DNA of 26,109 nt from a virus. Below the pieces are notes generated by a model. It did no database searches and had not been told where the DNA came from. It saw only the letters and a list, made by a program, of their open reading frames with translations. The stretch's first letter is position 1. Each line of letters begins with the position of its first letter. Positions 1,814 to 23,219 of the stretch are shown here, one piece after another. The stretch covers positions 1 through 26,109 of the IMG/VR virus record IMGVR_UViG_3300046010_008626. One strand, given 5' to 3'. The position numbers and the translations under genes are program-made.

Positions 1814-3412
1814 ATGAGCCGCGTTCTCGCCCGTCCAATGTTTAAGAAGAAGGCCCCGAAGCGTTCGTCTAAGGGGGTCGGTATCACGTCCGGTCTGATG
1901 GACGACGTGGCCGGCTACGCCGAAGGCGGCGAGGTTACGGACGACCGCACAGAGCGCGAGCGTCTTGCGCGTCAGCTTCTTGAACAGAACCGCGACGAGA
2001 ACAGCGACTATCAGATGTTTGCCGAAGGCGAGCGTCCGCAGATGTATCGTCCTCCGGCCACGGCTCCGGGTATGGTTCCGCAGCCCCAGCCGAATCCGCA
2101 GCAGATGCAGGCAATGCAGATGCAGCGCATGGCTCAGATGGGTATGCTGCCGCGCTTCCAAGAAGGTGGCGAAGTGCAGGCCCCCAGCATCTGGTCCCGC
2201 CTGTCTGCTCCTTTCCGTCAGCGTACCAGTCCCATCATGGATCCGAACACAGGCGAGCCGGCTGTGTTCTTCAACCCGGACGATCCGGTTGATCGGACGA
2301 TGGGCGGCATTGCGGATGTTTTGGCCTTGCGGGCTACAGGTGGCCGCATGAGATTCCCTCGTCCCCCCGCAGGCGGTGGTCTTGAACCGTCAACCCGTCC
2401 CGGTCCTTGGGAGATTGATCGCAGCTCCGGTCCGTGGTCCAAGCCCCAACCGCTCCCTCGTCGTGCTCAAGAACCGCCTCCTCCGGAAGGCGGGTCTGTC
2501 CCGAGTATGCCCTTGCCCCGTGAAGGAACCTCTGTTCCCAGTGTTGGTCGTACGCCGGCTCCTGGCGCTTCCGTAAGTCGTCCTCCGGGCCTTGGTACAA
2601 GAACCGGTATGACAGACCCGGATACCTACGACTTTGAACGGCGCGAGGCTACAAGGGATAGGATCAGCGACCTTACTCCACCGCCAAGCGAAGAGCGGCA
2701 GGCCGAGATGGAAATGAGCCGCGAGTCTGCTCGCGCTCGTGGCTTGTCTCGTCTCCCGGACACCCCCAAAAAGAAAGAGGCCCCTCCCCTTCCGCCTCCC
2801 CCGGACGAAAAGAAAAAAGACAATCTGCAAGACATCAAAGCCGAACGCGAAGCCCGTAAGGCGGAGCTTGCCGCGCAAGCTGATGCTGCCCGCAAGGAAA
2901 ACATGTGGCTGGCCCTCATGCAGGCCGGTCTTGCTATTGCTGGTGGCCGCAGCTCGAACGCCATCACCAACATTGGTCAAGGTGGTCAGGCTGGTCTTGC
3001 GTCCTTTATGGCTTTGGAACAGCAACGCCGTCGTGACGAAGATGCTGCCATGCGCCGCGATCTGGCGGAGCGAGAATACTTTTTGCAAGAGCGCCGCCTA
3101 AACATGCAAGAGCCCTATTATACGGCCCTCACTGAACGTCAGAAGATGGCCCCTCTCATCGCTCTTCAGAACCAACAACGAATGATGGCCGTCGCTCAGT
3201 TTAATGCTGAAAAGGAAGCTGGCAGGGCGTGGGAGGCTCACGTCAAAAACAACCAAACAAAATTCCTCGGGATGCCGGATGCCACATTAAACCTAGAACG
3301 GGATATTTTCATTCGCGAAAATGCCAAAAGACTTTTAAAACCTGCTTACGACGAGATTGCTCTCCGTTATACTCAGGGACAACGAGGCGGCGAAACTTCA
3401 CCCGAGGAATAA
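1814..3412 (+). CDS. virion-associated protein with AEGGEV-type motifs and coiled-coil C-terminus
   Basis: The ATG at 1814 is preferred: a GAGG element at 1805-1808 sits just upstream, and the frame open from 1778 would add an unlikely 12-residue extension overlapping the previous gene. The product is 532 residues. The N-terminus is basic (MFKKKAPKRSSKG), followed by two copies of a short motif, YAEGGEV and FQEGGEV, seen repeatedly in phage tail or virion proteins. Residues of about 170-320 are Pro/Arg-rich and probably disordered. A helical part from about residue 340 contains MWLALMQAGLAIAGGRSSNA and an Ala/Glu/Arg-rich coiled-coil-like stretch. It ends three bases before the giant ejection-type gene. 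Function is unknown; a virion or ejection-complex component is the best guess. Confidence 0.75.
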   Translation: MSRVLARPMFKKKAPKRSSKGVGITSGLMDDVAGYAEGGEVTDDRTERERLARQLLEQNRDENSDYQMFAEGERPQMYRPPATAPGMVPQPQPNPQQMQAMQMQRMAQMGMLPRFQEGGEVQAPSIWSRLSAPFRQRTSPIMDPNTGEPAVFFNPDDPVDRTMGGIADVLALRATGGRMRFPRPPAGGGLEPSTRPGPWEIDRSSGPWSKPQPLPRRAQEPPPPEGGSVPSMPLPREGTSVPSVGRTPAPGASVSRPPGLGTRTGMTDPDTYDFERREATRDRISDLTPPPSEERQAEMEMSRESARARGLSRLPDTPKKKEAPPLPPPPDEKKKDNLQDIKAEREARKAELAAQADAARKENMWLALMQAGLAIAGGRSSNAITNIGQGGQAGLASFMALEQQRRRDEDAAMRRDLAEREYFLQERRLNMQEPYYTALTERQKMAPLIALQNQQRMMAVAQFNAEKEAGRAWEAHVKNNQTKFLGMPDATLNLERDIFIRENAKRLLKPAYDEIALRYTQGQRGGETSPEE

Positions 3413-3415
3413 TCG

Positions 3416-6400
3416 ATGGCTGATACGTTGAAGCGGTATCGCGAAGCTTTCCCAGAGTTTCGCGATATGAAAGACGCCGAGCTTATCGACAGCCTTTGGA
3501 CAAGGTATGGCGGCGAGAACGCTGGAATTGCTAAGGAAGATTTTGCTCTTCAACTTCAGGGCCGTGGTCCACGGATCGGGGCCTTTGAAGCGGCAAAAGA
3601 AGGTCTGAAGAGTTCTCTTCAGACGGGCGCCGCAAAAGTCCTTAGTGATCTCGGAGCAGATGAGACCGCCGCAAAGATGGAGCGGTCTGCCGCCGCACGT
3701 CGAGAAGATGTCGAGGCCCGCTACCAGCCGCGTATCCGTGGCTACGAAGACATTGAAAGTATCGCCGACGTTCCGGAATATGCCGGCCAATTGATTGCAG
3801 GATCCGCCCCTCAAACAGGGCTCGGCATCGTTGGTGCTGGGATCGGGGCGCTTGCTTCCGCGAAGATTCCTGCCCTTCGTGGGGTTATGTCGAAGACTAC
3901 CGGGGCCTCAATAGGTGCTGGTACTGCCGGTTTCCCAGCGTATTTTGGCTCGAACATTGAACGGCAAATGGAGGAGGGAACTCCGTTTGAAGAAACAAGC
4001 TCGCTCGCGGCAGGCACTGCCGCAGCGGGGCAGTCCGCTTTTGATGTGCTGGCCTTCCGCACCCTGTTCAAGGGGATCCCCGGTCTTGCTGAGTTGACCC
4101 CCAAAGCGCAAGCATTGCGTGTCGGCCGCGCGGCCACTCGTGCCTTGGAGACAGGAGCCGCGGAAGCCCTGACTGAAACGGCGCAGCAGGCCTTAGAGTT
4201 GATGCAGGCCAATCCGGAGAAATTTTTTGAGTTCGGACCGGAGGTCCAAAAAGAACTTGTTAACGCGGCTATTGGTGGTGGCTTGGTTGGTGGTCTGCTT
4301 GGTGGCGCTGCGGGTGCAGTGAGCCGTGCTCCACGGCCCATGGTCCAGACGGAACCGGAAGCACAGACCGAACCGGATCAGCAACAAGAACCGGAGAAGA
4401 AGCCGGATATCTTGGCGTTGCCTGCCCCGGAAGGTGGCGAACCCACTGGCGAACCTGAAGGCGGAGAGCCTCCCGCTCTTGGCCCAGAAGGCGAACCGTT
4501 GGCGCCGGCTCCGCGTCAGCCCGAGCCCGACACAACCCCCGCCCCGGAACCCGTCGCTGGACCGGAGGGCGAACCGACTGCTCCAATTGAACCTGTCGAA
4601 CCGGTTGAGCCCGCAGCTCCCATTGCCCCGGCCAAGCCGAAGGCCCCGGACTTATTCACGATGCCCGTTCCACCGGAACTTCCCAAGTCGCTGAAGCTTG
4701 GGAAGTGGACCTACACCTATGGCAACAAGGGCAAGTTCGAACTGGCATTTGCGACGGACGTTGAGAAGGCCCTGTTTCAAGCGTCCAAGAAAACGCTGAA
4801 GGACAAGGACCCGGAATACGTTCAGTGGCTCAAGGACCAAGGTCTGTCGGACAATGAAATCAAGGGCTACGGCGCTCAATTCCGCCAGCTCTTGAAGGAG
4901 CAGGTTGAGGCGCAACTAAAGGCGGGTAAGAATAGCGGCACTATCGCTGTCCCGCGGTTCACCTTAAAGGGGCTTGCTCGGCCAGAGCCGGGGGCGCCAG
5001 CACCGAAGCCAGCACCTGTTACACCGCCCGCTCCTGCCCCGGTTATGCCCCCGCAGACCGCGCCAACCCCTGCTCCGCAAGCTCCGATTGCCCCGGTCAA
5101 GGTGCCGTTTACGGAATCCGTCTCTGTTCGCAAGGACCGGACGGCGGGAAATAGCAGCTTTCTTGTAACCAAGGCTCCAAATCAGGAACAGGTTCAGATT
5201 CAGTCTACTCCGAGAGAGTTGCAAGCTTTAGAAAACGCTCTCCCCGGAGCCATCGACCTGCTGCGAGAAGTACATGCACGGCTTCTCCCAGGCACCGACA
5301 TGAGACTCGTCATTGAAAACGACCCGGATAGCACGCGTTTTGGTTGGAACGCGGTGGGGCTTGGACGCAACTTTACGTTGTCGCTCAACCCGAATGCTAT
5401 TGCGAAAGCCGCGCGAGACGAAAAGGATAAGAAAGCTTTTCTAACGCGAACGATGTTCCACGAATTGTCTCATAACGTGGAAAACTTTTATTTGTCCCGC
5501 GCTCCGAAGAATGTACTCAACGCCATAGTTGACCAGTACATGAAGGAAAGAAACCCGGACGCTATGATTCGTGCCGCTATATACGAATCAATACGGAAGC
5601 TTCGTCCTAGCGAAAAAGACACGTTCTTAGTGGATCTGCGCTCTCGCCTAAAACTTTCAGAAGCGGAGTACAGGCAGTATCTCAACTCCAGCACAAAAGT
5701 TCTCCCGGAGTTCATGCGGCCGGCTACATATCGCGGGTCACAAAGCGAGATCCGCGATGACTATTACCGCAGCTTTACGGAATGGGTTGCTGAAAAAGGC
5801 GCTGAGTGGCTGACAAAAGAGGCCGAAGGGATCGTTCCAAAAACTGTGTTTGAGACTTTCCAGAAGAACATACTCAATCAATTAAGGAAGCTGTACAACG
5901 AGATCGTTTCGGCTCTAGGCATAAAGCCTACCGAAGGCGCTTTCGAAAAGTTTATGCGAGACAACTATGGAACCAACAAAACCGTTGGTTCCAATGCGGG
6001 TTTCGTTAGACAACGGGGCATCATTAACTACACTGAAAAAGGCGCGACTCAAGGCGGAGGGAAAGCGTCTAGTGAGGTAGCAGTCGAAGAAACCCCGTCG
6101 CAGGAAATAATCTCCACGGGATCAGCGGCGAAAGCCTCCGCAGACGTTCAAGCCGCTCAACAGAAACTTGCAAAGGCTTACACCGCTCCCCCGAAGATGG
6201 GCTTCAAAGGTTTCTTGAACCTTGTCAAAGAAGCATACGAAAGCGGCTCGTACAAAAACCTCGGCGACAAAATATCTTACGCCATGAACGACCGCTTCAT
6301 TTACGTAAGGCGTATGCAGGAGCGTTACGTTGACTTCCTAAAGAAACAGGGTTTGAAGCTGGAAGCCGCATACGACGACCGTCATGCGCTTGCAGCCAAC

Positions 6401-8767
6401 CTGTCTCCTTACGCTGCGATCCTCGGACGAGAGAACGTCCTCGGTATGTTAGAGACGCTGATCAAGCTTGGCGGCGTCCCGGTTATCAAGAAGTTTTCCA
6501 AGTCAAAAGATCCGCTTGAGCAATCGCTCGACGGCATGCTTCTCGTTGACAACACGAACAACAAGGTTGGTCTTACCTTCTTGGCGGATCTCATCCGGGC
6601 GGAGAAGCTCGACGCCTTCAAATATTACTCAATGGCAAAGCGTGTCCTTGGCCGCTACGCAGACAAGCAGGCCCCCATCACCAAGGCCGAAGCCCAAGCG
6701 ATCATTGATCACTACGGCAAAGATCCTGTTGTCACGAAGGCCTATCAAGATTATCAGAACTTCAACAAGGCTCTGATGCAGATGGCCGTGGACGCGGGCG
6801 TCATCTCCCAAGATGTCGCCAACGAGTTCATGAAACACAACGACTACTATCCTTTCTATCGTGAGATGGATGAGGCAGGCAATTATACAGGCCCTCTGTT
6901 TACATCTGGCGTCCTTACACGGACCAAGATCCAGCAGGCGATGGGCGGAACAGAACAGCTACAGGCTGATCCCGTTGAAGTCATCATGAAGAATGCTCAG
7001 TTCTGGATGCATTCTGCGTCAAAGAATTTGGCATCAAGGAAGATCTTCACAATGATGGAAGGTCTTGGAGAAGCACAGAAGATCAAGAAGGGGGCAAAGC
7101 TTCCCCCGGATCAAAGCGTTGGCGTGACGCGCGTTAACGGTGTTGAGCAATACTACGCTCTCAAAGACCCCGTTATGATTGCCGCGCTCGAAACCACAGG
7201 TGCTCAACAACTTCCGAATTGGACAAGGATTCCGGGAAAGTTCACGCAGTTCTATCGCGAACTCGTTACACGCTCACCGGACTTCATCTTGAAGAACGTG
7301 ATCCGAGATCCAACGGTTGCTTATGTGACAAGCGGGGTATCGTTTAACCCGTTTGCTCCAATCAAGCGTTTTGTAAAGGCCGTTGTCGATCCGAAGCCGA
7401 TGACAGAAATGCAGGCTATTCAAAACTGGGGCATCATGGGTGGCTATCGCTCTATCCCTGGCGTTGAAGATGCCACGCAAATTTTGAATGAAAACTTCAA
7501 GCCAACCTCGAACGGGGTTTACGTTGTCCCTAACGGTCGCGTTCTAAGCGGGATTATCTCAAAGGTTTGGAACAAGCTTGGCGATATCTCCGAGGCTTCC
7601 GACGCTGCCACGCGTATGGAAGTTTACAAGCAGGTCTTAGAAAAAACAGGTAACGAAGCCGAAGCTGCGTTCCGTGCGCAGGAGGTCATCAACTTCCGCA
7701 AGCAGGGCGCAAGCTCCATCGTTCGCTACATGTCGATTATGATCCCGTTCGTGAACGGCCGCCTGCAAGGCATGGACGTAACGGCTCGTGCGTTTGGTCC
7801 GAAGGCCTTCGCCAACACCATGATCAAAGGCGGGTATCTCTTCGGTGTATCCATGGCGCTGCAAGCCATGTTTGGGGACGACGAAGAATATAAGCAGCTT
7901 CCAGACTACGTTCGGTATGCATCCCTCCCCATCCCACTGAAGGTGTTCGGATTCGAAGGCGGGTTTCTTGCTATTCCGAAGCCGTTCGAAATTGGGTTCG
8001 TCTTCCAGACATTCCCGGAGATTCTCGTTCAGGCTGCCATGGGCAATGTCGAGAACCGAGACATTCCGAAGGCCGCGTGGGAGCAGCTCAAGTCCACGTT
8101 TGGTGTCAGCCCGTTCCCGCAGATTGCGGCACCGCTGCTTGAGATTGTGTTTAACCGTTCTAGCTTGACGGGTCTGCCCATCGTCACTGAGGCGCAGAAG
8201 AACCTTCCGGCCGAACTGCAATACACTTCGACCACCTCAGACGTGGTGAAGAATCTGGCCGGCGCCGCGGGCCTGTCCCCGGTGCAGGTTGAAGCGTTGA
8301 TCAAAGGCTATGGCGGTCAGATCGTCACCAGCGTTCTGGGTCTGGTGGACGGCATGTACCGTTCTGCCTCCGGCACGGGAGTCGAGAAGGATTGGACACA
8401 ATACCCCACAATCTCGACGTTCTTAAAGACGGCGCAGAACACCAACCCGAAAGGCGTTGCTGACATCTACCGTCTGTCGGCAGAGATCCAAGGGGTGACC
8501 ACGGCCATCAACACCTACGTTGCACAGGGTCGTGCGGATCTTGCGCAGGAGCTGATGAAAAAGAACGAAAGCCTGCTGACAATGAAGCAGTCCGTTACCG
8601 GTCTTCGCACTCAGCTCAACACGCTAAGCCGCAATGAGCGGATGATCGTAAACAACCCGAACATCCCGCAGGATCAAAAGGAAATTCAGGTCGAACAGAT
8701 CCGCGAGGCCCGCCGTCAGATCGGTAAGGTCATGACGGAGAACCTCATCGATAAGACCGGTAAGTGA
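3416..8767 (+). CDS. giant multidomain virion/ejection-type protein with HELSH metallopeptidase-like motif
   Basis: This 1783-residue protein starts at ATG 3416, three bases after the preceding stop. Order of parts: an N-terminal helical module (YREAFPEFRDMKDAELIDSL) common at the start of phage ejection-type proteins; small-residue hydrophobic stretches near residues 125-150 and 282-303 that could insert in membrane; a Pro/Glu-rich linker at about 305-415; a small charged domain at 417-520; a second Pro-rich linker at 520-562; a region with HELSH at residues 682-686, resembling the zinc-binding HEXXH motif, with a possible third ligand in SFTEWVAE near 786-793; and a long C-terminal region containing SPDFILKNVIRDPTVAYVTS near 1285, reminiscent of the LPD38 domain of large polyvalent proteins; then a coiled-coil-like end. 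By analogy with T7 gp16-type proteins it may be ejected into the host. The protease activity is inferred only from the motif. Confidence 0.8.
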   Translation: MADTLKRYREAFPEFRDMKDAELIDSLWTRYGGENAGIAKEDFALQLQGRGPRIGAFEAAKEGLKSSLQTGAAKVLSDLGADETAAKMERSAAARREDVEARYQPRIRGYEDIESIADVPEYAGQLIAGSAPQTGLGIVGAGIGALASAKIPALRGVMSKTTGASIGAGTAGFPAYFGSNIERQMEEGTPFEETSSLAAGTAAAGQSAFDVLAFRTLFKGIPGLAELTPKAQALRVGRAATRALETGAAEALTETAQQALELMQANPEKFFEFGPEVQKELVNAAIGGGLVGGLLGGAAGAVSRAPRPMVQTEPEAQTEPDQQQEPEKKPDILALPAPEGGEPTGEPEGGEPPALGPEGEPLAPAPRQPEPDTTPAPEPVAGPEGEPTAPIEPVEPVEPAAPIAPAKPKAPDLFTMPVPPELPKSLKLGKWTYTYGNKGKFELAFATDVEKALFQASKKTLKDKDPEYVQWLKDQGLSDNEIKGYGAQFRQLLKEQVEAQLKAGKNSGTIAVPRFTLKGLARPEPGAPAPKPAPVTPPAPAPVMPPQTAPTPAPQAPIAPVKVPFTESVSVRKDRTAGNSSFLVTKAPNQEQVQIQSTPRELQALENALPGAIDLLREVHARLLPGTDMRLVIENDPDSTRFGWNAVGLGRNFTLSLNPNAIAKAARDEKDKKAFLTRTMFHELSHNVENFYLSRAPKNVLNAIVDQYMKERNPDAMIRAAIYESIRKLRPSEKDTFLVDLRSRLKLSEAEYRQYLNSSTKVLPEFMRPATYRGSQSEIRDDYYRSFTEWVAEKGAEWLTKEAEGIVPKTVFETFQKNILNQLRKLYNEIVSALGIKPTEGAFEKFMRDNYGTNKTVGSNAGFVRQRGIINYTEKGATQGGGKASSEVAVEETPSQEIISTGSAAKASADVQAAQQKLAKAYTAPPKMGFKGFLNLVKEAYESGSYKNLGDKISYAMNDRFIYVRRMQERYVDFLKKQGLKLEAAYDDRHALAANLSPYAAILGRENVLGMLETLIKLGGVPVIKKFSKSKDPLEQSLDGMLLVDNTNNKVGLTFLADLIRAEKLDAFKYYSMAKRVLGRYADKQAPITKAEAQAIIDHYGKDPVVTKAYQDYQNFNKALMQMAVDAGVISQDVANEFMKHNDYYPFYREMDEAGNYTGPLFTSGVLTRTKIQQAMGGTEQLQADPVEVIMKNAQFWMHSASKNLASRKIFTMMEGLGEAQKIKKGAKLPPDQSVGVTRVNGVEQYYALKDPVMIAALETTGAQQLPNWTRIPGKFTQFYRELVTRSPDFILKNVIRDPTVAYVTSGVSFNPFAPIKRFVKAVVDPKPMTEMQAIQNWGIMGGYRSIPGVEDATQILNENFKPTSNGVYVVPNGRVLSGIISKVWNKLGDISEASDAATRMEVYKQVLEKTGNEAEAAFRAQEVINFRKQGASSIVRYMSIMIPFVNGRLQGMDVTARAFGPKAFANTMIKGGYLFGVSMALQAMFGDDEEYKQLPDYVRYASLPIPLKVFGFEGGFLAIPKPFEIGFVFQTFPEILVQAAMGNVENRDIPKAAWEQLKSTFGVSPFPQIAAPLLEIVFNRSSLTGLPIVTEAQKNLPAELQYTSTTSDVVKNLAGAAGLSPVQVEALIKGYGGQIVTSVLGLVDGMYRSASGTGVEKDWTQYPTISTFLKTAQNTNPKGVADIYRLSAEIQGVTTAINTYVAQGRADLAQELMKKNESLLTMKQSVTGLRTQLNTLSRNERMIVNNPNIPQDQKEIQVEQIREARRQIGKVMTENLIDKTGK

Positions 8768-12085: not shown

Positions 12086-13615
12086 ATGGAACTCGCAGCA
12101 CGATTCCATTCGCTGTTTGCTGGGAATGATAGAGCGCACGGAACGTTCAGCGTCAACGCTGACCGCGCTACAGACGGAAAGAAAACCGGTACTGCGCGAG
12201 TCCTCCGTGAACCTCCGACCACGGACCTTTGGTCTAAGCACCTCAAGGGTGAGTCGGGTCTAGGCATCATCCCAATCAAGGACAACAACTGCTGTCATTG
12301 GGGCGCCATCGATATCGATGTGTACAATCTTGACCACGCTGCACTGATCAAGCAGGTCGAGAAGCACAACCTACCGGGCATTGTCTGCCGCAGTAAATCC
12401 GGCGGCGCTCATCTGTTTTTCTTTTTCGACAAGGAAGTTCCGGCCGAGGACCTCCAACCAAAGCTAATCAGCATTGCTGCAATGCTTGGCTATGGTGGAT
12501 CCGAGGTGTTCCCCAAGCAGCAGAAGATCCTGGCTGATCGTGGTGACACGGGCAACTTCCTTAACATGCCGTACTTCTCTGGCACTCGCACGACACGCTA
12601 CGGCTACAACAACCAGAACGAAAGTCTCGGGCCGGCGGAGTTCATCGAGTTCGCCGAGAGCCGAACCATTGCACCCGACACATTCTTGGAGCTGCGCACA
12701 CAGCCCAAGAAAGCAGAGGAGCTGCTGCCCAAAGGACCGCCATGCTTGCAGCATCTTGCCGCGCAGGGGTTCGGCGAAGGCTCGCGCAACAATGCACTGT
12801 TCAACCTTGGCGTCTACTGCCGCATGTCCAACCCCGACAAGTGGGAAGAGGATCTGCACAAGTACAATATGAAATACATGGTGCCGCCGCTCGATAGCAA
12901 AGAGGTGGAGATCGTCATCAGCCAACTTCGCAAGAAGGAATACTTCTACAAGTGCGAAGACCAACCCATCGTGTCCTTCTGCAACAAGGACGTGTGCATC
13001 ACGCGCAAGTTCGGCATCGGCCCCGGCCAACGGTCCAATGACCTTGGCTCACTGACCAAGATCGACGGCGATCCTCCGGTCTGGATCCTCGATGTGGACG
13101 GCAAGCGTGTCGAGCTGGGCACTGATGCCTTCGTTAACCAGAAGGCGTTCCAACGTGACTGCATGAACCAGATCAACGTCATGCCCCGCACCATGAGTGC
13201 GAAGGCGTGGGAGGCACGCATCCAAGTGATGCTGGCCAGCCTGACGATTGTTGAGGTTCCGCCTGAAGCCACAAGCAAGGGTGAGTTCTTTGATCTCCTC
13301 ACCACCTTCTGTTGCGACCGAGCGAAGGGTGTTGATCGCGAAGACATCCTGCAAGGCATCGCCGTGTGGACTGACGGCCGCGTCTACTTCCAAGTCAAAG
13401 ATCTCAAGAAGCATCTGGCTCAATATCAATTCACCTCATACACCGCCGTCAAGATTGGCCTCCGCCTGAAAGAGATGGGCGCAGAGAAAACCTTTTGGAA
13501 TATTAAAGGCCGCGGTGTCCATGTGTGGGGCATGCAACAGAAATCATTCGACGGACATCAAGAGGTGGTGATGGAGCTGCCGCCGCTGCGCAGCGAGGAA
13601 GCGGACATTCTCTGA
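12086..13615 (+). CDS. archaeo-eukaryotic-type (AEP) DNA primase, TOTE-like
   Basis: This is a 509-residue protein. Motifs: AIDIDVY at residues 74-80 fits the metal-binding hhDhD motif I; SKSGGAHLFFFF with H109 fits motif II (sxH); SEVFPKQ with E140 fits the acidic motif III region seen in primases of the TOTE-like clade. A GEGSRNNALFNLGVYCR segment near 230 resembles the PriCT helical domain. It is followed by a Cys cluster (YKCEDQP, SFCNKDVC) probably binding zinc. The last 150 residues look like a winged-helix or accessory domain. It would make primers for the family A polymerase downstream. No helicase domain is fused; the separate UvrD-type helicase overlaps its stop (TGATG at 13613-13617). 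Start ATG 12086 has GGAAT upstream. Confidence 0.87.
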   Translation: MELAARFHSLFAGNDRAHGTFSVNADRATDGKKTGTARVLREPPTTDLWSKHLKGESGLGIIPIKDNNCCHWGAIDIDVYNLDHAALIKQVEKHNLPGIVCRSKSGGAHLFFFFDKEVPAEDLQPKLISIAAMLGYGGSEVFPKQQKILADRGDTGNFLNMPYFSGTRTTRYGYNNQNESLGPAEFIEFAESRTIAPDTFLELRTQPKKAEELLPKGPPCLQHLAAQGFGEGSRNNALFNLGVYCRMSNPDKWEEDLHKYNMKYMVPPLDSKEVEIVISQLRKKEYFYKCEDQPIVSFCNKDVCITRKFGIGPGQRSNDLGSLTKIDGDPPVWILDVDGKRVELGTDAFVNQKAFQRDCMNQINVMPRTMSAKAWEARIQVMLASLTIVEVPPEATSKGEFFDLLTTFCCDRAKGVDREDILQGIAVWTDGRVYFQVKDLKKHLAQYQFTSYTAVKIGLRLKEMGAEKTFWNIKGRGVHVWGMQQKSFDGHQEVVMELPPLRSEEADIL

Positions 13616-15129
13616 TGCACATCATCCTCGGCCCGCCTGGCACAGGGAAGACAACGAAACTCCTGACGCTAGTCGAGGAGTTCATGGACCGTGGTGTCCC
13701 GCCAGATCGTATCGCCTATTTCAGTTTCACCCGGCAAGCTGCAATGGAAGCGATCAGTCGCGCGGTCCGCCGCTTCCGCTTGTCGCCCAAGGATCTGCCC
13801 TACTTCCGCACTCTCCACAGTTTCGCAATGCTTCGCTGTGGCATTGACAAAAAGAATGTCATGACGTGGAAGCACTACGAAGAGGCCGCGAACTGGCTCC
13901 GCATCGGGCAGTTTCAAGAACTGGCCCCGCCCTCTGACGGACCGTATCAAGAATACGGCTTCGGTGATCGCTTCCTTGAGGTGATCAACATGTCGCGCAT
14001 CTGCCTCTTGCCACTTCGGGAAGTCTACAACCGCTCCTCCGTGCCAATGACTACGGACTGGGCCAAGGTCGATTATGTTGACCGGGGCCTTCGGTTCTTC
14101 AAGAAAACCAATAACCTTTATGATTTCACCGACATGATCGAGATGTTCATCGAACAGCAGCTCTCCCCACAGTTCGATGTCGTGTTTGTAGATGAGGTCC
14201 AAGATCTGTCGCCAATCCAATGGCGCATGGTCGAACTCATCTCGAAGTTTTCCAAACAGGTTATCGTGGCAGGAGACGATGATCAGGCGATTTATAGATG
14301 GGCGGGGGCGGACGTAGACTACTTCATTCGTCTCGCCGGGACACAAGAGATATTGGGACAGAGCTTTCGTATTCCTGCCAGTCATCATGCGATCAGCCAG
14401 CGCCTCATCCACCAAGTTCATCATCGCCGGCAGAAAGAGTTTCGTCCGCGCGACGAGGAGGGTTTAGTCGAGTGGCATCGCCACAGCGAGGAAGTTAACC
14501 TAGAAAGTGGTGATTGGCTATTGCTGTCCCGCACACGTAGGGGTGCAAAACAAATCGAACAAGAAGTGCGGCAGCGCGGTTTGTTGTATTCGTTCAACCT
14601 CAGCTCCGACGTAGACAGTGGAGCACTCAACGCAATCCGCATGTGGGAGCAACTGCGCAACGGTGAGTTGCTGTCGGCCGCAGATGTTCGCCATGTCTAT
14701 CGGCACATGAATCTTCACGAGCAGATCAAGCGCGGTCACAAGACGCTGCCGAATGTTGAAGGCGATCAGCTCTTGAGCATCGAGCAACTGACCTCGGACC
14801 ATGGACTAATGACCAAGGCTCCGTGGGACGAAGCACTCGGCGCAATCCCCGAGGAAGACAAGCGTTACTTCCGGGCGTGCATCCGTCGAGGCGAGCGTGT
14901 TGATGCGAAGCCTCGTATTCGGATCTCAACAATCCACACGGCAAAGGGAGCAGAGGCTACCAATGTCATGCTCATGACGGATTATCCATCTAAAGCTGTA
15001 AACTCGGTGCGAAAGGGTATACACTCTGAGGACGACGAAGCCCGCGTCTTTTATGTGGGGCTGACTCGGGCGAAGAAAGAGCTTCACCTGATCCATCCTA
15101 TGAGCGGCAAGGGTTATCCAATCCCATGA
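13615..15129 (+). CDS. UvrD/Rep-type superfamily 1 DNA helicase
   Basis: The ATG at 13615 overlaps the primase stop. It is preferred over the upstream GTG-like opening at 13525 because the Walker A motif follows at once and a GAGGAAG ribosome-binding element lies just before. The product is 504 residues, short for a UvrD but complete in motifs: GPPGTGKTT (6-14), VVFVDEVQD (DEVQD at 193-197), GDDDQAIYRWAG (220 onward), QSFRIP, STIHTAKGAEA and VFYVGLTRAKKELHL. It is predicted to unwind DNA 3'-5' at the fork or during repair. It is translationally coupled to the primase before it and, by ATGA, to the zinc-ribbon gene after it. Confidence 0.93.
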   Translation: MHIILGPPGTGKTTKLLTLVEEFMDRGVPPDRIAYFSFTRQAAMEAISRAVRRFRLSPKDLPYFRTLHSFAMLRCGIDKKNVMTWKHYEEAANWLRIGQFQELAPPSDGPYQEYGFGDRFLEVINMSRICLLPLREVYNRSSVPMTTDWAKVDYVDRGLRFFKKTNNLYDFTDMIEMFIEQQLSPQFDVVFVDEVQDLSPIQWRMVELISKFSKQVIVAGDDDQAIYRWAGADVDYFIRLAGTQEILGQSFRIPASHHAISQRLIHQVHHRRQKEFRPRDEEGLVEWHRHSEEVNLESGDWLLLSRTRRGAKQIEQEVRQRGLLYSFNLSSDVDSGALNAIRMWEQLRNGELLSAADVRHVYRHMNLHEQIKRGHKTLPNVEGDQLLSIEQLTSDHGLMTKAPWDEALGAIPEEDKRYFRACIRRGERVDAKPRIRISTIHTAKGAEATNVMLMTDYPSKAVNSVRKGIHSEDDEARVFYVGLTRAKKELHLIHPMSGKGYPIP

Positions 15130-21141: not shown

Positions 21142-21169
21142 ATTGTGAGGATTGTAAACTTTTAGTCAA
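21142..21169 (-). promoter_or_regulatory. candidate promoter upstream of the 93-residue gene
   Basis: On the minus strand TTGACT (21169-21164) and CACAAT (21147-21142) are 16 bases apart. The -35 overlaps the stop codon of the thermonuclease-like gene. The spacer holds GTTTACAAT, also seen near 24200 (minus) and at 24846-24854 (plus). A GAGTC site lies in the leader at 21081-21085. The rest of 21059-21165 is non-coding, with GTGAGGATT occurring twice. Confidence 0.5.
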
Positions 21170-21549
21170 GCCTTACAGTAGGGCTTCTGGCTCAGTTTGA
21201 GCCGCACTCCGACAGGTTCGACAGATGCGTAGGTCCCGCCCGAGTAGCGCCGGCAATCCAATGCAGCGCCACGGGCCACGACCTCTCGATTGATTTCGAC
21301 AGATCCGACATAGCAGCGAGCGACGTGCCGGCCATAGCCGTCCATCGTTCTGACCCGACACCACACGGTCTTCCGGCCGGCCAAATTTTGCAAAACCTGG
21401 CGCGCGTTTGTTCCTCCCGGCTCGTGTAATTCGGCAGCGTCAACACCCCATAGCCGGACGGATAGCTTGCCGAATCGCAGCGTGTCTCCATCGACAGCGT
21501 AAGGCGTGCCGCAGATCAGGTTGAGGAGGAGGACCGTGACGCATGTCAT
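21166..21549 (-). CDS. thermonuclease (staphylococcal nuclease)-like protein with signal-like N-terminus
   Basis: This 127-residue protein starts at an ATGA overlap. The first 18 residues (MTCVTVLLLNLICGTPYA) are hydrophobic and end in an A-like cleavage context, so it may be exported or membrane-anchored. The core matches the SNase fold: VDGDTLRF (D20, D22), VRLWGVDAAE (R32, D37, E40) and DGYGRHVA (R74), aligning with the catalytic R35, D40, E43 and R87 and the calcium-site aspartates of Staphylococcus nuclease. All are present, so activity is plausible. The C-terminus contains a copy of the 9-bp GACAGG-type repeat (21208-21226). It may degrade host or competing DNA; an export role in entry or exclusion is possible. 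Confidence 0.85.
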   Translation of the reverse strand: MTCVTVLLLNLICGTPYAVDGDTLRFGKLSVRLWGVDAAELHEPGGTNARQVLQNLAGRKTVWCRVRTMDGYGRHVARCYVGSVEINREVVARGAALDCRRYSGGTYASVEPVGVRLKLSQKPYCKA

Positions 21550-22078: not shown

Positions 22079-22138
22079 TTTATTCGACAGAATAAACTGT
22101 TGGCCGGGAAAGCGGGGCTTTCTGCCTCGACAGTTTAT
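22079..22138. other. structured intergenic element with nested hairpins
   Basis: TTTATTC-GACA-GAATAAA (22079-22096) is a perfect 7-bp inverted repeat. Overlapping it, ATAAACTG (22092-22099) pairs with CAGTTTAT (22131-22138), enclosing GGC/GCC and a perfect GAAAGC-GGG-GCTTTC hairpin (22108-22122). The outer arm includes the methyltransferase stop codon. On the minus strand the structure follows the methyltransferase, so termination, RNA processing or a regulator site is possible. The gap 22040-22134 holds no other gene. Confidence 0.6.
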
Positions 22139-23004
22139 GACTCCATGTACGCGGCTATGACTTCCGCCGCGACTTGCGGGACGATGGCATTTCCATAGGC
22201 GCGTAGTCGTCCCACTCGGGAGGGAACCCCATGAGCCAGCAAACGAATTGAGGGTTCAATGCGCCGGGATTTTCCGTCTGCTCCCGATAGCCAAGCACAT
22301 TCTCCCCAAGCCCCAAGGCGTCGATGGCTTCCGTCGTCAGAGACTTCTGCGTCCCCTTCGCATCGCCCATTCGACGCTGGTAGCCGAGCCTCGCTTCGTG
22401 AGCCATCGGAGTCGGCCACATTGCCTTCACTTGCCCCGACAGTTTCGGCTCCCCGCGCGAGTTGATCTTGCCTTTCGCCCGGTTCACTGCGTCGTCCGCC
22501 ACGGGCGTCTGCCACAAACCAAAGTCGATCTCTTCGATGGGGCGCGTTGACGGCACAAGCCGGAACAACGACCGCCCCGCAGGAGTAGTCGATGGCTTCC
22601 AAGTCAGAACACACTCCGTCGAGCCAGCTTTTTCCAACCGCTGCCGCAACCTGTTCTCCCATGACGACAGCGGGCCGTCTGGCACGGATGAGTCGATAAA
22701 ATTCCGGCCAGAGGTGCCGCTCGTCCGCTTGGCCTTTTTGCTTTCCTGCCGCGGAGAAAGGCTGGCAAGGGCATGATCCTGTCCAGATGGGTCTGTCGTC
22801 TGACCATCCTGCGAGACGGAGGGCATGACTCCAGCCTCCGATCCCGGCAAAGAAGTGGCACTGCACGAACCCATCAAGATCGACGGGTTCGACTTCTGTG
22901 ATTGATCGTTCATCCACTTCTCCATCAGGGATCAGCCCCTTTGCAATCAGGTTTCGCAGCCATTGCGCCGCGTACGGATCAAACTCGTTGTAATAGACGG
23001 CCAT
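22135..23004 (-). CDS. DNA (cytosine-5)-methyltransferase
   Basis: The start at ATG 23004 overlaps the upstream stop as TGATG; the frame stays open to 23037 but the longer start adds residues not expected in the family. The product is 289 residues. Motif I FFAGIGGW (52-59), motif IV GSCPCQPF with catalytic C80, motif VI as EQV (117-119, a variant of the usual ENV), motif VIII PHRRDRLWFVA, and motif IX-X RLRAYGNAIVPQVAAEVI near the end are all present. The target-recognition segment between VIII and IX is short and Gly/Ser/Glu-rich. It probably modifies phage or host DNA against restriction; the target sequence is unknown. A second frame, 22155-22913, is nested in it. Confidence 0.9.
   Translation of the reverse strand: MAVYYNEFDPYAAQWLRNLIAKGLIPDGEVDERSITEVEPVDLDGFVQCHFFAGIGGWSHALRLAGWSDDRPIWTGSCPCQPFSAAGKQKGQADERHLWPEFYRLIRARRPAVVMGEQVAAAVGKSWLDGVCSDLEAIDYSCGAVVVPACAVNAPHRRDRLWFVADARGGRRSEPGERQDQLARGAETVGASEGNVADSDGSRSEARLPASNGRCEGDAEVSDDGSHRRLGAWGECAWLSGADGKSRRIEPSIRLLAHGVPSRVGRLRAYGNAIVPQVAAEVIAAYMES
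22155..22913 (-). CDS. nested overlapping frame inside the C5-methyltransferase gene, methyltransferase-associated family-like
   Basis: This 252-residue frame runs on the same strand as the methyltransferase but in another frame and lies wholly inside it. ATG 22913 has GGAG six bases upstream. The product contains SWENRLRQRLEKAGSTECVL, then TWKPSTTPAGRSLFRL, LWQTPVADDA, MWPTPMAHEARLGY and LNPQFVCWLMGFPPEWDDYA. These are hallmarks I associate with a phage/prophage protein that commonly accompanies cytosine methyltransferases (W-x-T-P-x-A, L-N-P-x-F-V-x-W-L-M-G-F/Y-P-x-E-W). A random shadow frame would not be expected to show several such motifs in order. It may be a real dual-coded protein; function is unknown. 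Confidence 0.58.
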   Translation of the reverse strand: MNDQSQKSNPSILMGSCSATSLPGSEAGVMPSVSQDGQTTDPSGQDHALASLSPRQESKKAKRTSGTSGRNFIDSSVPDGPLSSWENRLRQRLEKAGSTECVLTWKPSTTPAGRSLFRLVPSTRPIEEIDFGLWQTPVADDAVNRAKGKINSRGEPKLSGQVKAMWPTPMAHEARLGYQRRMGDAKGTQKSLTTEAIDALGLGENVLGYREQTENPGALNPQFVCWLMGFPPEWDDYAPMEMPSSRKSRRKS

Positions 23005-23219
23005 CAGAAATCCTTGAACCAGCGTTCGTCTTCGCACCAGCGGAAGGCCTCGTCCGCAAGCTTGCGGATGGTTGCCGTGTTGGCCTCTTCCAGATCGATC
23101 TCCTGATCGCGGGCCAGCTCTTCCATGATCTCCAAAACGATGTCCGTCTCATGCCGCTCTGTGCCGAGCCAATGCTCGACGGTTTTGCCGAGGGTGGGTT
23201 GCAGATTCATGCGGGTCAT
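23004..23219 (-). CDS. hypothetical acidic helical protein
   Basis: The start at ATG 23219 overlaps the upstream stop (TGATG) and has GAGGAG upstream; an open frame to 23255 is not preferred. The product is 71 residues, beginning MTRMNLQPTLGKTVEHWLG, helical, Glu/Asp-rich, ending CEDERWFKDF. It is coupled to the methyltransferase by its own stop (TGATG at 23002-23006). Not recognised. Confidence 0.62.
   Translation of the reverse strand: MTRMNLQPTLGKTVEHWLGTERHETDIVLEIMEELARDQEIDLEEANTATIRKLADEAFRWCEDERWFKDF

Follow-up and report, generated by a model that had tools for sequence, protein, structure and literature searches.

A phage dual-coding locus that probably specifies a two-subunit C5-cytosine DNA methyltransferase

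Two overlapping genes on one strand

The DNA analyzed here (the window) is an IMG/VR virus contig of 26,109 bases, and all of the evidence presented is computational. On the minus strand, a C5-cytosine DNA methyltransferase gene (outer gene) contains a second long open reading frame in its +1 frame (inner gene). The features of the locus are as follows:

22135..23004, minus strand: outer gene, C5-cytosine DNA methyltransferase of 289 amino acids, ATG at 23004 (PF00145, phrog_363)
22155..22913, minus strand: inner gene in the +1 frame of the outer gene, 252 amino acids, ATG at 22913 (phrog_1008)
22920..22923, minus strand: Shine-Dalgarno-like GGAG, 6 nt 5' of the inner ATG (GGAG AAGTGG ATG)
22545..22667, minus strand: inner core, residues 83-123 (SSWENRLRQRLEKAGSTECVLTWKPSTTPAGRSLFRLVPST), predicted helix and beta hairpin (from AF2 order and identity above null)
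22299..22514, minus strand: two WPTP-type inner modules (WQTPVADDA... and WPTPMAHEARLGYQ...SLTT), residues 134-205 (from module families, exchange and inner-frame constraint)
22212..22259, minus strand: inner C-terminal motif LNPQFVCWLMGFPPEW, residues 219-234, motif IX-like (from hhalign and inner identity)
22165..22197, minus strand: outer motif X (YGNAIVPQVAA; from hhalign of the outer C-terminus)

Both genes have alternative starts. An upstream in-frame GTG at 23037 would extend the outer ORF to 22135..23037, and the first ATG of the inner ORF, at 22925, would give a product of 256 amino acids (22155..22925). The GGAG site of the inner gene overlaps the outer codons for Gly-Glu, and the WPTP-type modules overlie the recognition region of the outer protein.

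The outer protein matched the profiles PF00145 (3.4e-21) and phrog_363 (6.6e-85). Together with the PF00145 match, the motif IV cysteine (PCQ), the motif VI glutamate and the RxR of motif VIII identify it as a C5 enzyme; P79, C80, E117, R158 and R160 were invariant among 40 homologues. The profile search of the inner product proposed in the first-pass annotation of this DNA was performed and yielded phrog_1008 (4.7e-29, residues 20-197), with no match in Pfam or NCBIfam; sequence matches in PADLOC or PDB were likewise not found.

The same contig carries helicase, primase and DNA polymerase genes. Primase-like (phrog_21866, 12086-13615) and helicase-like (phrog_1967, 13525-15129) ORFs on the plus strand overlap by ~90 bases, and a 1,783-aa ORF occupies 3416-8767, also on the plus strand. 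On the 3' side of the methyltransferase, a small minus-strand ORF (21166-21549) resembles a staphylococcal-nuclease-type protein (GDTLRFGKLSVRLWGVDAAEL), as judged by eye.

Selection on the inner frame

In the window alone, the inner frame is open for 258 codons, compared to a mean of 132 when synonymous codons were shuffled without altering the outer protein (p ~0.01). By itself this is modest evidence for an inner gene. We therefore rely on homologues. A set of 45 non-redundant homologues was retrieved with the methyltransferase alone, without consulting the inner frame. Across outer residues 105-256, this set contained no inner-frame stop, where 110.5 were expected from synonymous-codon shuffles. 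Homologues with an inner frame broken by stops were also looked for in a larger set of 213, which includes loci fetched by the inner protein; here 0 stops were observed against ~467 expected over the same residues. All 57 of the 57 loci retrieved with the outer protein only carried a match to the inner family. The effect was limited to the +1 frame, as no comparable openness was found in the +2 frame, and it persisted in loci of lower GC content (0.43-0.49).

Constraint was analyzed in both frames. Among 188 homologues with 26-60% outer identity, the residues of the inner protein were more conserved than the codon-shuffle null predicts. Residues 1-30 showed no such excess. The identity at residues 91-120 was 0.43-0.44 (null 0.24-0.26), and the C-terminal region with the consensus LNPxFVxWLMGFPxEW reached 0.60 (null 0.23). 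Pairwise dNN/dNS by site classes was 0.68 for the inner frame and 1.16 for the +2 control, a difference that we take as support only, because codon-position effects partly confound the site classes. Both frames are under purifying selection. Stop avoidance, residue conservation beyond the demands of the other frame and a start signal of its own, the features by which an overprinted gene is recognized, were all found. In two loci (L119 and L120, at ~3068-3071), a stop breaks the methyltransferase frame while the inner frame is open, representing either a natural break or a sequencing error.

The null model of a shadow ORF was rejected by the codon-shuffle tests of stops and of residue conservation. 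That the inner ORF is such a shadow, open and conserved in appearance only through conservation of the methyltransferase protein and GC-rich codon usage, is hardly credible: the openness of the window, ~1 in 100 under shuffling, and the first ~30 inner residues would fit this explanation, but it fails to account for the lack of stops in a set not ascertained via the inner frame, the conservation of the C-terminal motif, the modules in which outer identity falls below inner identity, the persistence of the pattern at low GC, and the canonical methyltransferases that have no nested frame. The inner ORF is almost certainly a real second gene, and the locus dual-coding. The first-pass annotation had proposed two conserved nested genes. 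This proposal is upheld by the stop and conservation analyses, the overlap covering almost all of the inner gene.

The inner gene also has its own boundaries. Among the 213 homologues, inner-frame stops were about as frequent as expected, or more so, as far as outer residue 38; they were almost absent from residues 41-43 onward and returned after residue ~263. ATG codons were enriched at outer residue 37 (117 observed, 59 expected), and an inner ATG was located within outer residues 25-44 in 165 of 173 homologues. Shine-Dalgarno-like sites upstream of the inner ATG were likewise in excess (137 observed, 78 expected). Thus, the ATG of the inner gene with GGAG six bases upstream, as claimed in the first-pass annotation, is present in the window and has counterparts in the homologues. 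Judged from these sequence patterns, the limits of the open region and the enrichment of ATG and Shine-Dalgarno-like sites argue for independent initiation over frameshifting. Entry into the inner frame by a programmed +1 frameshift would generate a single fused chain with motifs I-VIII, WPTP modules and motif IX, an order that the arrangement of the motifs along the DNA would suit, as would the lack of excess conservation in the first ~30 inner-frame residues. We nevertheless consider this very improbable, since inner residues 31-125, which lie 5' of any plausible shift, are conserved above the null, stop avoidance sets in sharply at outer residue ~41 where ATG and Shine-Dalgarno-like sites are enriched, and the fused chain, ending with the inner frame, would be left without motif X.

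Recognition modules and motif IX

The AF2 model of the outer protein is confident at residues 1-167 and 271-289, with M.HhaI as the top structural match. Residues 177-233 and 253-270 have pLDDT values below 50, and this central region is both disordered in the model and unconserved across homologues. For the motif comparison, we used a reference profile of 37 canonical C5 methyltransferases. The outer C-terminus aligned to canonical motif X only (hhalign, E 2e-4); motif IX remained unaligned, although short motifs can be missed by this method. The outer protein thus seems to be without a recognition domain and a motif IX of its own.

The inner protein was modeled poorly overall (pLDDT 59.7, pTM 0.24). 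Order was limited to a helix at residues 83-96, two strands forming a hairpin (102-109 and 115-122) and helices at 221-237. A structural search with this model found nothing above Z 2.2, a result that excludes no fold. When the inner C-terminus was compared with canonical motif IX, hhalign returned a score of 22.0 that was reached by none of 1,020 column shuffles; the match is short and, with an E-value of 0.011, weak in absolute terms. A plain HMM search of the inner C-terminus against motif IX was not significant (4.3 bits, shuffled maximum 4.7) and thus performed less well than the shuffle-controlled profile-profile comparison. The full-length inner protein aligned co-linearly with canonical enzymes in hhalign, but insignificantly (E 0.064), and we therefore do not claim that the inner core derives from motifs VI-VIII. 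Motif X is in the outer frame and the motif IX-like segment in the inner frame.

In the recognition region, it is mainly the inner frame that is constrained. For the module WPTPMAHEARLGYQ...SLTT, mean identity was 0.76 in the inner frame compared to 0.39 in the outer frame, with inner identity exceeding outer identity in all 169 of 169 pairs. Differences fell on inner codon positions 1, 2 and 3 in the ratio 1686:951:3160. From this pattern and the inner identity it follows that selection at this site acts on the inner protein and leaves the methyltransferase reading nearly free. The earlier suggestion that the recognition region of the methyltransferase is shaped by the inner frame is borne out by these values.

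Splitting 289 inner proteins at WPTP-like motifs resulted in 0-5 modules per protein and a total of 194 clusters. In the larger clusters, inner identity was mostly 0.6-0.9, with outer identity down to 0.17. Six of the 61 multi-locus clusters were common, at 60% or more, to methyltransferases whose catalytic cores are less than 50% identical. The history of these modules, whether one of transfer or of retention, is therefore separate from that of the core.

Distribution and function of the nested pair

Nested pairs were found in phages, in viral contigs and, across many phyla, in bacterial contigs. Further cases are N15 gp58, epsilon15, Paenibacillus phages and Bacteroides phages, as well as a Leptospira plasmid and a Methanomethylovorans plasmid. 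The pattern was matched at least ~600 times in viral contigs and at least ~600 times in genome contigs, so that nesting of this kind is not rare, contrary to what had been supposed at first. The inner protein had also been taken for a separate phage family that often accompanies such enzymes; instead, of 344 inner matches, 339 lie nested in the +1 frame of methyltransferases from a single clade. The inner gene belongs to one clade of methyltransferases, the phage type. Canonical C5 methyltransferases of the same bacterial genomes do not contain it, nor does an NgoMIV-type methyltransferase. Two relatives of the outer gene deviate: the inner frame is apparently absent in Mycobacterium phage Papez and borderline in Gordonia phage Neville (L336 and L334, respectively), which are possible losses or pre-overlap forms.

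Independent copies of the inner gene, another point raised in the first-pass annotation, exist in part. One lineage (L170, positions 2123-2353, and the near-identical contigs L255-L257) has a partial stand-alone copy of 76 amino acids, consisting of one (different) WPTP module and the motif IX-like C-terminal motif. Its methyltransferase frame is decayed and full of stops. This copy adjoins a nested gene, beginning inside the end of an intact methyltransferase that has its own nested gene. Apart from this adjacent form, the viral and bacterial-genome loci examined contained no unlinked stand-alone inner gene, nor was one noticed among the phage and plasmid matches listed.

We consider it probable that the locus specifies a two-subunit C5-cytosine DNA methyltransferase in which the inner chain supplies recognition and motif IX. 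The outer frame would give rise to the catalytic subunit, with motifs I-VIII and X. The inner +1 frame, translated from its own ATG and Shine-Dalgarno site in the same mRNA, would yield a smaller protein with a disordered N-terminus, a helix-hairpin core, at least one exchangeable WPTP module and a C-terminal motif IX-like helix. The two chains would then assemble, the inner protein probably providing target recognition and motif IX in trans, and the phage would use the enzyme to methylate its own DNA against host restriction. We infer the assembly, recognition in trans, target specificity and restriction protection of the two-chain enzyme from the division of motifs and modules described above. 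Note that co-occurrence does not prove a joint function, because nesting forces linkage.

The inner protein may instead be a real gene product that acts apart from the methyltransferase, in an anti-restriction, anti-defence or regulatory role, with modules that bind host proteins and not DNA. We regard this as rather unlikely. The inner protein is without a match to known folds or families, its linkage is uninformative for the reason just given, and exchangeable modules would be equally suited to host-protein binding. On the other hand, a separate role would leave unexplained why the inner C-terminus resembles motif IX, which is seemingly missing from the outer protein, and why the modules sit exactly at the place of the recognition domain. 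Moreover, unlinked copies were not found in the loci and matches surveyed, the sole stand-alone copy abuts a nested gene, and C5 methyltransferases made of two chains, the smaller of which carries motif IX, are described in PMC3404938.

If the two-subunit reading is correct, a broader picture can be proposed, although more tentatively. The locus could represent a large, old phage and prophage family with catalysis in one frame and interchangeable DNA-recognition modules in the other, the module region being a passive spacer for the methyltransferase. Small subunits consisting of a module and motif IX could have split off to act in trans.

Full-length nesting of conserved genes on the same strand is usually hard to prove. 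The hundreds of diverged copies make this a well-supported case and reveal which frame is constrained in each segment. The inner gene is often dropped or mislabeled in annotation, and functional tests in which a phage methyltransferase is recoded or trimmed may therefore silently lose a subunit. Should the modules set sequence specificity, they would amount to a code from which phage methylation patterns could be read, and to a natural collection of specificity subunits that can be exchanged.

Relation to known systems

The nesting is visible in existing annotations. In the entries as shown, phrog_363 (outer) and phrog_1008 (inner) are both labeled 'DNA methyltransferase', with nesting unmentioned. 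The same nesting is annotated in K1 coliphages, with the inner product as 'Mte8-like protein' (GU196281.1 ORF29, L091), and in Paenibacillus phage Pagassa, with the inner product PAGASSA_60 as a second DNA-cytosine methyltransferase (MG727699.1, L344). The literature searched, with most subscription papers outside its scope, contained no description of this nesting or dual coding in phages. The ShiLan type, in which actinophage methylases contain an out-of-frame HNH endonuclease (PMC11855218), is another case of a phage methylase gene that also encodes a second protein. There the HNH endonuclease belongs to a homing insertion, whereas here both genes use the methyltransferase's own sequence. 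Prophage m5C methyltransferases with relaxed specificity are described from Paracoccus (PMC3925955).

Two known enzymes are comparable to the proposed one. M.AquI alpha/beta is a natural C5 methyltransferase of two chains: one carries catalytic motifs, while motif IX and part of the recognition region are on the other; its chains are not known to be full-length nested. AquI beta also has motif X and half of the variable region (PMC3404938), in contrast to the present locus, where motif X is in the outer (catalytic) chain.

By analogy, the nested phage enzyme resembles a two-part enzyme known since 1995, M.EcoHK31I (isospecific with M.EaeI; YGGCCR). In M.EcoHK31I, the gene of the large chain also codes, in another frame, for the small chain, and activity requires both. 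Nesting of the small-chain ORF, here in the +1 frame, is found in the window locus as well. According to PMC3404938 (citing Lee, Kam and Shaw 1995), the large chain of M.EcoHK31I contains motifs I-VIII and X and the small chain motif IX, the same division of motifs between chains as proposed here. The same source places the predicted recognition domain of M.EcoHK31I in the large chain, whereas in the phage locus the small chain bears the conserved modules of the recognition region. M.EcoHK31I belongs to a restriction-modification system, and no partner endonuclease was noticed beside the window gene. Finally, the family described here is large, phage-borne and modular.
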